DNA from: Chelativorans petroleitrophicus | Lineage (GTDB): Bacteria > Pseudomonadota > Alphaproteobacteria > Rhizobiales > Rhizobiaceae | Direction of reading: 5' to 3' | Assembly: GCF_025398195.1 (NCBI RefSeq) | Contig: NZ_JAODNV010000010.1 | Coordinates: 124,001-188,000 of the forward strand | DNA: 64,000 nucleotides | In this document: piece by piece, positions 1 to 1,088 of the stretch | How positions within the stretch are numbered: the first letter of the stretch is position 1 | Layout of the letters: each line of letters begins with the position of its first letter | Program-made: the position numbers and the translations under genes | Notes under the pieces: generated by a model | Seen by the model: only the letters and a program-made list of their open reading frames with translations | Told to the model about the DNA's origin: nothing | Databases searched by the model: none

Positions 1-440
1 CGATCCGCCGCAGCGAGATCGGCTTCGTCTATCAGTTCCATCACCTGCTGCCGGAATTCACCGCACTCGAAAATGTGATGATGCCGCAGCTCATCGCCGG
101 TCTTGATGCGCGCGAGGCGAAGGAGCGGGCGGCACAGCTTCTGAACTACATGAAGCTTGGTGAGCGGATGGACCACCGCCCGAACGAGCTTTCCGGCGGC
201 GAGCAGCAGCGTGTGGCGATCGCCCGGGCGGTGGCGAATGCGCCGCTCGTGCTTCTGGCCGACGAGCCGACAGGCAATCTCGATCCCGCGACCGCGGCCT
301 ATGTCTTCGATGCGCTGGAGGCGCTGGTGCGCCATTCCGGGCTTGCCGCACTCATCGCCACCCACAATGAGGAGCTGGCTGCGCGCATGGACAGGCGCGT
401 CACCCTCTCGCAGGGCAAGGTGGTGGAACTTCCGGCTTGA
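1..440 (+). CDS. lolD: LolD, lipoprotein-releasing ABC transporter ATPase (5' end cut by window)
   Basis: The gene is cut by the left edge; the frame is open from base 3. LolD is the ATPase of the inner-membrane LolCDE complex, which extracts lipoproteins bound for the outer membrane and passes them to LolA. The visible part starts in the Q-loop ([13 protein letters not shown]). It continues with the signature [14 protein letters not shown] (about 190-230), Walker [13 protein letters not shown] (about 247-282) and the H-loop ATHN (about 357-368). The HHLLPEF...ALENV text after the Q-loop glutamine is typical of LolD rather than of FtsE or MacB. Walker A lies outside the window. The gene ends 30 nt from a convergent VOC gene. 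Confidence 0.9.
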
Positions 441-470: not shown

Positions 471-821
471 TCATGTGTGCTCGAGGATGTTTATGAGCTT
501 GCCGAACGGATCACGCACATAGAAACGGCGTACGCCCCAGGGCTCGTCCGCCGGCCCGTACTCGATCGCGATCCCCGCATTCCGCACGCGCTCAAGCGCT
601 TCCTCAAGATCGTCCACTTCAATGGAAAGGTCGGGCACAGGCGTGCCGGAGCCGCCCTCGGCCGCGAAGCTGACCTGCACGGCCGCTCTCTCCCGCGCGC
701 CATAGGTGGCGATCCAGCCGTGGTCCATCAGCAATTCGAGACCCAGAACCTCGCCATAGAAGGAGCGCGCGGCCGCCAGCTCGCGCGTCTCCACATTGGC
801 CACGATACGCTTCACTTGCAT
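471..821 (-). CDS. VOC-family (glyoxalase/bleomycin-resistance fold) protein
   Basis: This 116-residue protein has the two beta-alpha-beta-beta-beta halves of the vicinal oxygen chelate fold. The N-terminal half carries RSFYGEVLGLEL, and the C-terminal half ends VRRFYVRDPFGKLINILEH, the usual 'DP.GN.i.i.e' closing strand. VOC proteins are metal-dependent lyases, dioxygenases or drug-binding proteins, and the substrate cannot be told from sequence. The start is supported by AGGAG seven nt upstream of the ATG. It is convergent with lolD, with no obvious terminator in the 30 nt between them. Confidence 0.8.
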   Translation of the reverse strand: MQVKRIVANVETRELAAARSFYGEVLGLELLMDHGWIATYGARERAAVQVSFAAEGGSGTPVPDLSIEVDDLEEALERVRNAGIAIEYGPADEPWGVRRFYVRDPFGKLINILEHT

Positions 822-930: not shown

Positions 931-959
931 TTGACAGGAACATTTTTAGAACATATAAG
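931..959 (+). promoter_or_regulatory. sigma70-type promoter with LexA (SOS) box in the spacer
   Basis: TTGACA (931-936) and TATAAG (954-959) are separated by exactly 17 bp. Inside and overlapping this element lies GAAC (938-941), seven bases, GAAC (949-952). GAAC-N7-GAAC is the established LexA-binding direct repeat of alphaproteobacteria. A repressor bound here would cover the spacer and the upstream edge of the -10. The element points at the small ORF starting at 1002. The sequence match is direct; SOS control is inferred. Confidence 0.8.
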
Positions 960-1001
960 AAACATATCAAGATCAATATGACTTTTCCACAGGAGGACCC
1001 C

Positions 1002-1088
1002 ATGTCCGGTCTCGTTCAGGATGTCTTGTCGCTGGTGGCCGTCAGCTCCTTCCTCGTCGTCGCGGCGACGTGGATCGGCGCTCTCTGA
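1002..1088 (+). CDS. 28-residue single-helix membrane peptide, probably SOS-induced (SidA-like candidate)
   Basis: The ATG is preceded by AGGAGG (991-996) at a five-nt gap, and by a near-consensus promoter carrying a LexA box (931-959). The peptide begins MSGLVQDVLSLVAVSS and continues as one uninterrupted hydrophobic helix, LVAVSSFLVVAATWIGAL, ending at TGA 1086-1088. In Caulobacter the 29-aa inner-membrane protein SidA is LexA-controlled and blocks division; this gene has the same size, topology and regulation. I do not claim homology, because such short sequences cannot be aligned by eye. The strength of promoter and ribosome-binding site argues that it is a real gene despite its size. Confidence 0.65.
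   Translation: MSGLVQDVLSLVAVSSFLVVAATWIGAL

Follow-up and report, generated by a model that had tools for sequence, protein, structure and literature searches.

SidA of Caulobacter is a 29-residue inner-membrane peptide and the primary SOS division inhibitor of that organism. Its interaction partners are FtsW and FtsN, and its suppressor mutations lie in ftsW and ftsI (PMC4211646). The same paper describes the SOS division inhibitors sulA, yneA, divS, chiZ, and sidA as unrelated genes. YneA has been reported to interact with FtsW (PMC13396833, PMC6851548). Comparative work lists dnaE as reported to be SOS regulated in Caulobacter (PMC3323433), and the main Caulobacter dnaE is CC1926 (PMC1839093). 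In the literature that we searched, which subscription journals mostly lay outside, we found no SOS division inhibitor for Hyphomicrobiales.

Here, we analyzed a stretch of 64,000 nucleotides from Chelativorans petroleitrophicus (contig NZ_JAODNV010000010.1, positions 124,001 to 188,000 of the forward strand), referred to below as the window. It carries a 28-codon frame behind a LexA-type box. We consider it probable (about 0.78) that this frame is an unrecognized sidA ortholog at its old place behind lolD and that its product would block division at FtsW/FtsN after DNA damage. The proposed homology is drawn from sequence and synteny, and the proposed LexA binding and division arrest are carried over from Caulobacter.

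Promoter, LexA-type box, and reading frame in the window

A preliminary description of this DNA had reported a consensus-like promoter with a 17-bp spacer and a LexA box within it, followed by AGGAGG at five nt and a 28-codon frame for a single hydrophobic helix. We found all of these elements, the promoter and box to the base at 931 to 959 and the AGGAGG and frame at 991 to 1088. The features of the first 1,088 nt of the window are as follows.

75..440, + strand: 3' part of an ABC-transporter ATPase gene, lolD-like (Pfam ABC_tran; synteny); the conserved upstream neighbor of the peptide
471..821, - strand: VOC/glyoxalase-family gene between lolD and the peptide gene, divergent (Pfam Glyoxalase)
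931..936, + strand: -35 hexamer TTGACA (read from the sequence; TTGAC kept in 13 of 13 aligned genus loci)
937-953, + strand: promoter spacer, 17 nt (read from the sequence)
938..952, + strand: putative LexA box GAACATTTTTAGAAC (GAAC-N7-GAAC), overlapping the promoter spacer (sequence pattern; conserved before homologous peptides)
954..959, + strand: -10 hexamer TATAAG, 5 of 6 consensus positions (read from the sequence)
983..991, + strand: TTTTCCACA, one mismatch from TTATNCACA (genus comparison)
991..996, + strand: Shine-Dalgarno sequence AGGAGG, 5 nt ahead of the ATG at 1002 (read from the sequence)
1002..1088, + strand: 28-codon gene for a SidA-like putative membrane peptide, stop codon TGA included (homologue search, profile, codon test)

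We take the ABC-transporter ATPase gene at 75 to 440 to be lolD and use that name below. The frame at 1002 to 1088 translates to MSGLVQDVLSLVAVSSFLVVAATWIGAL. The best 19-residue Kyte-Doolittle mean of this 28-residue, single-helix peptide is 2.14, starting at residue 8, and D7 is its sole charged residue. The promoter at 931 to 959 was absent from the output of a strict promoter scan, which gave one weak opposite-strand site. The scan requires the -10 hexamer to end in T, and this one ends in G. Within the window, GAAC-N7-GAAC occurs 4 times compared with 1.72 expected, and 9 of 100 shuffles reach 4; the box alone is therefore not significant.

The motif abutting the Shine-Dalgarno sequence varies within the genus. 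Of the 13 genus copies, 10 have an exact TTATNCACA, the DnaA-box consensus, at this position; it has one mismatch in the window and L015 and is absent from L011. The exact motif was not found at that place in L067 to L075 (Nitratireductor, Aquibium, and MAGs).

The peptide frame is conserved and very probably translated

A protein search of the window's own genome and 60 relatives matched the peptide in 25 of 61 genomes at an E value of ≤10. Every same-genus genome had a match (15/15), with E values from 1e-10 to 0.03, the weakest being 0.002 to 0.03. The preliminary description had turned on whether frame and box are conserved in close relatives, and in those looked at they are: a boxed copy is present in 15 of 15 genus genomes, and its box is exact in 13 of them and deviates at one base in the other 2. 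In one of these genomes, the boxed copy is the second-best peptide match.

We compared 13 of the 16 boxed genus copies codon by codon, including the window's own and leaving out the more divergent L018, L022, and L028. Differences at codon positions 1, 2, and 3 numbered 297, 162, and 952. For the peptide frame, pN was 0.111 and pS was 0.526, with pN below pS in 75 of 78 pairs. When the same copies were read in either other frame, pN exceeded pS. Because of this codon-position pattern and the excess of pS over pN, which is reversed in the other frames, we consider the 28-codon frame to be very probably a translated and selected gene. A noncoding reading of 1002 to 1088 is contradicted by the codon-position pattern. 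D7 and F17 do not vary across a 27-sequence peptide alignment, and this constancy suggests that the peptide has a specific partner.

We rejected membership of the window peptide in a known protein family, since Pfam and NCBIfam gave no match at an E value of ≤10 and the only PHROGs match (phrog_1508; E value, 0.052) was not significant. The peptide had been called unannotated, and that description holds only in the sense that Pfam and NCBIfam have no matching model. Plasmid searches with three chromosomal-type peptides and a phage-collection search with one such peptide gave no match.

The LexA-type box accompanies the peptide

A profile (A1) that we built on 20 close relatives was searched against 397 genomes of the order. 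It gave matches in 130 of them at an E value of ≤0.5, many of which are noise. We examined 60 further profile matches, 40 weaker ones chosen mainly for their short open frames and 20 partial matches in long frames that served as controls. An exact GAAC-N7-GAAC lies at most 130 nt upstream of 25 of the 40 short-frame matches, which were used in no model, and a one-mismatch box lies upstream of 6 more. No upstream box was found for the long-frame controls (0/20), and the background for an upstream GAAC-N7-GAAC was 24 of 5580 stretches.

The box pattern with a final A occurs at 30 sites in the window's genome compared with 13 for the reversed control. The same pattern stands ahead of lexA and ssb in this genome, both checked with Pfam. 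Two more boxed ORFs of this genome are presumably ImuA-like, as judged by eye; the one scanned with Pfam was assigned to no family. At L087, on contig C7 of the same genome, the distance from the first base of an exact LexA-type box to the start of an ORF is 31 nt; by eye, we take this ORF to be VOC-like. Elsewhere (L016, L033 to L036, L038, and L039), GAAC half-sites stand in series at 11-nt spacing and form overlapping boxes, some with one mismatch.

The preliminary description had proposed LexA-type control. The persistence of the box pattern with the frame in relatives and its presence before lexA and ssb argue for this proposal. Judged from these sequence comparisons, the combination of promoter, box, Shine-Dalgarno sequence, and frame is beyond chance.

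The peptide gene and Caulobacter sidA have a locus in common

We recognized Caulobacter genomes by CtrA, listed LexA-type boxes in three of them (G844, G865, and G856), and sought hydrophobic mini-ORFs behind them, examining 30 of 32 box sites in G844 and a chosen part in G865 and G856. Behind the examined boxes of G844, we found a single hydrophobic mini-ORF, of 29 residues. NCBIfam model NF033228 identifies its product as SidA (70.8 bits, compared with a cutoff of 35). This sidA gene lies 23 nt before dnaE, and a lolD-like gene lies about 1.1 kb upstream. A search with the G844 SidA gave a match in 48 of the 60 genomes of Caulobacteraceae (E value, ≤10). Among the 30 Caulobacteraceae loci listed, the box is exact at 21 and has one mismatch at 6, and the sequence is incomplete at 3. 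dnaE lies within the locus at 30 of 30 (the DnaE query was taken from L284, one of these loci), and lolD is matched at 12 of 30.

We found the same neighbors in Hyphomicrobiales. Of 57 distinct loci, 42 have a box together with lolD and/or dnaE, 5 have a box alone, 10 have neither, and none has lolD or dnaE without a box. Boxed peptide loci are therefore beside lolD and/or dnaE in 42 of 47 cases, compared with 0 of 10 for unboxed loci. In this tally, L023 and L040 are one place and were counted once, and the incomplete L048 was omitted. Of 58 distinct loci of the order, 15 have both lolD and dnaE. The window's genome has lolD beside the peptide gene and dnaE on another contig; this dnaE has no box in the 700 bp upstream, one mismatch being allowed. 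Among the 13 genus loci of the codon test, no DnaE match was found within 1.5 kb (0/13). The VOC gene at 471 to 821 (- strand) is present at only 10 of the 16 boxed genus loci and is therefore not a conserved partner.

Profile comparison with SidA

We scored 22 of the 30 Caulobacteraceae peptides, which are related to each other, against a profile of the Hyphomicrobiales peptides; L268, L271, L282, L284, L286, L289, L292, and L293 were left out as incomplete, near-duplicate, or of uncertain start. We found that 21 of the 22 scored above the 99.9th percentile of 6600 shuffles, the best at 23.5 bits. Only 10 of the 22 exceeded the highest of the 6600 shuffles (18.4 bits), and the forward test is thus not clean. 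The G844 SidA itself scored 12.7 bits. Alignment of the two profiles with hhalign gave a probability of 92.4 and a P value of 5e-7 over 23 columns. The reverse profile was weak: the 99th percentile of shuffles was exceeded by only 6 of the 27 peptides from Hyphomicrobiales. Because the window peptide scored only 4.6 bits in this direction, it is not recognizable as SidA by itself.

NF033228 gave no match at an E value of ≤10 to the window peptide or to 5 other peptides of the order. Its cutoff was passed in 1 of 14 control genomes and in none of the 297 genomes searched in the order, 134 of which had subthreshold matches at an E value of ≤1. The genes of the order would therefore not get the name SidA from this model. 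In an ungapped alignment, the window peptide and SidA have 7 of 28 residues identical, with the common residues around L-V-x-V-x-S-F.

Taken together, the profile comparison and the common locus point to SidA orthology. They lend support to the likeness to SidA that the preliminary description had drawn. Its accompanying view, that the sequence is not recognizably the same, did not survive: identity is low and NF033228 is silent, yet profile and locus point to an orthologous relationship.

Boxed hydrophobic ORFs upstream of dnaE

We also surveyed the order without using the peptide sequence. dnaE was located by the N-terminus of its product, and the 700 bp upstream was read in all 59 genomes. 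An exact box is present in 31 of 59 genomes, and a boxed hydrophobic ORF of 22 to 45 residues is present in 27 of 59. On the antisense strand, we found a boxed ORF in 0 of 59 genomes, and control stretches gave 1 in 354. The other 32 genomes have no boxed ORF at dnaE. These 32 include the window's genome, which has its copy at another place, and 27 of 59 is therefore a lower bound. L301, L325, L329, and L350 are out of register and were counted as lacking an ORF, L325 and L350 still being counted as boxed. Three of the 27 ORFs were in the profile training set; for 19 of the other 24, no more than 1 of 1000 shuffles scored as high against the family profile. Five of the 27 were not distinguishable from shuffles.

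In the class survey, which took 61 of 95 genomes with a dnaE match and favored larger genomes, an exact box was present upstream of dnaE in 9 of 61 genomes and a boxed ORF in 6 of 61, with no antisense ORF. L327 is clearly family-like; of 1000 shuffles, 3 scored as high as L405 and 10 as high as L345. L335, L337, and L413 showed no likeness to the family profile. A class-wide profile search gave matches, mostly partial, in 27 of 385 genomes at an E value of ≤0.1, with boxes at L107 to L109 and L130.

The preliminary description had supposed that the peptide is widespread in Hyphomicrobiales. Our results agree, with matches in all 15 same-genus genomes searched and in other genera and with the boxed ORFs of the dnaE survey. 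We also suggest that the LexA boxes credited to dnaE in Caulobacter are there for sidA and that any control of dnaE by them is secondary.

Boxless peptides and phage genes

A second class of SidA-like peptides (MRDLxQD-type) is boxless and lies away from lolD and dnaE (L017, L026, L027, and L029). A phage gene for exonuclease VIII lies beside L027 (phrog_412; E value, 7e-81), and one for a DUF5131 protein lies beside L026 (phrog_2045; E value, 2e-115). The neighbor of L017 gave weak PHROG matches only. Viral contigs hold three loci with the boxless type (L422, L423, and L424), and the L422 peptide is the same as that of L027. When viral contigs were searched for the chromosomal type, none was found. 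We scored the six distinct boxless peptides against the family profile and found that five beat all 1000 shuffles and that L423 was beaten by one. In the plasmid and phage-collection search, a phage-type peptide gave one 57% partial match at an E value of 7, which we disregarded. Going by their sequences and neighbors, it is possible that the boxless peptides are phage-borne division inhibitors.

Proposed mechanism and alternative explanations

According to our model, LexA bound to GAAC-N7-GAAC inside the promoter would keep the peptide gene off. DNA damage would activate RecA and lead to cleavage of LexA. The strong promoter and ribosome-binding site would then yield a 28-residue, single-helix inner-membrane peptide. 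This peptide would bind the late divisome at FtsW, and perhaps FtsN, and hold it inactive, and the cell would elongate without dividing until LexA returns. Five steps of this model are inferred from Caulobacter, namely, LexA binding, induction, membrane insertion, FtsW contact, and division arrest. Suppressor mutations have been reported at A31, F145, and A246 of Caulobacter FtsW (PMC4211646). By alignment, FtsW of the window's genome has A, F, and A at these positions, the same as in G844. This match is consistent with the mechanism and is no proof of it, as the sites could be kept for general reasons.

What we saw directly is the anatomy of the locus, the purifying selection on the frame, the co-conservation of box and frame, the locus in common with SidA, and the profile similarity. 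As an alternative, the product might be a toxin of the TisB/DinQ type that is induced in the SOS response and inserts in the inner membrane; it would lower the membrane potential and bring about dormancy rather than a specific division block. TisB of Escherichia coli is an SOS-induced single-helix peptide of similar length, and a single hydrophobic helix by itself fits a toxin and a division inhibitor alike. DinQ, also of E. coli, is described as a toxic single-transmembrane peptide with similar size and SOS control (PMC3567139). However, locus and profile tie the window peptide to SidA (TisB and DinQ being known here by description only), and the invariant D7 and F17 in 27 sequences suggest a specific partner. 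DinQ and TisB are toxic membrane peptides under antisense RNA control, and we found no Rfam family, which covers described RNA families, at an E value of ≤1 in positions 600 to 1500 of the window. We regard a toxin of this type as improbable.

The remaining alternatives assign the box to another gene or to chance. If the box served dnaE, the replicative polymerase gene, the mini-ORF would be a leader or a by-product. dnaE does lie downstream of the peptide in many genomes, after a gap of only 23 nt in G844, and the reported SOS regulation of dnaE (PMC3323433) would fit. We rejected this explanation as very unlikely, since in the window's genome the box stays with the peptide while dnaE, on another contig, has no box in its 700 bp upstream; the frame is under purifying selection, and SidA has a known function (PMC4211646). 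Slightly less likely still is regulation of the divergent VOC/glyoxalase gene, with the frame incidental. The start codon of that gene is 116 nt from the box, and the L087 ORF is a second putative VOC-like ORF with a box, but we rejected this reading because box and peptide persist at the 6 of 16 boxed genus loci that have no VOC gene. A chance alignment of promoter-, box-, and frame-like sequences accords with the box count in the window taken alone. It is contradicted by the genus conservation, the box association, the codon test, and the dnaE survey, and we give it a negligible probability.

We therefore favor a SidA-type division inhibitor. Our findings suggest that this brake predates Caulobacter and its relatives and reaches beyond them. 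A broader history, to which we give even odds, is that the SidA checkpoint is ancestral in alphaproteobacteria and was encoded between lolD and dnaE, which would explain the boxes credited to dnaE. The peptide gene would have parted from dnaE in some lineages with its box kept. It would also have been taken up, boxless, by temperate phages, in one or more cases next to a gene for a recombination exonuclease, and these phages may use it to stop host division. A SidA-type peptide across the families of the order is a testable candidate for a DNA-damage division checkpoint, and the Hyphomicrobiales peptides offer natural variants for mapping the SidA-FtsW contact. Our finding also suggests rereading the LexA boxes credited to dnaE.

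Comparison with known division inhibitors

YneA of Bacillus and SosA of Staphylococcus are Gram-positive proteins, compared here by description only, and both are larger than the window peptide. Like the proposed product of the window gene, they are reported to be SOS-induced division inhibitors (PMC13396833, PMC6851548). DidA of Caulobacter (71 aa) is likewise a small single-helix division inhibitor that acts on the FtsW/I/N complex; it is larger than the window peptide and, in contrast to what we propose for the latter, is SOS independent, and it binds FtsN (PMC4211646), a distinction that we draw from its description only. The closest likeness is to SidA. The window peptide lacks the basic N terminus of SidA (R3 and R6), its W24 is V in the G844 SidA, NF033228 does not match it, and dnaE is not adjacent to its gene. 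It has in common with SidA a promoter with a LexA box, a length of 28 to 29 aa, one hydrophobic helix, and a place behind lolD.
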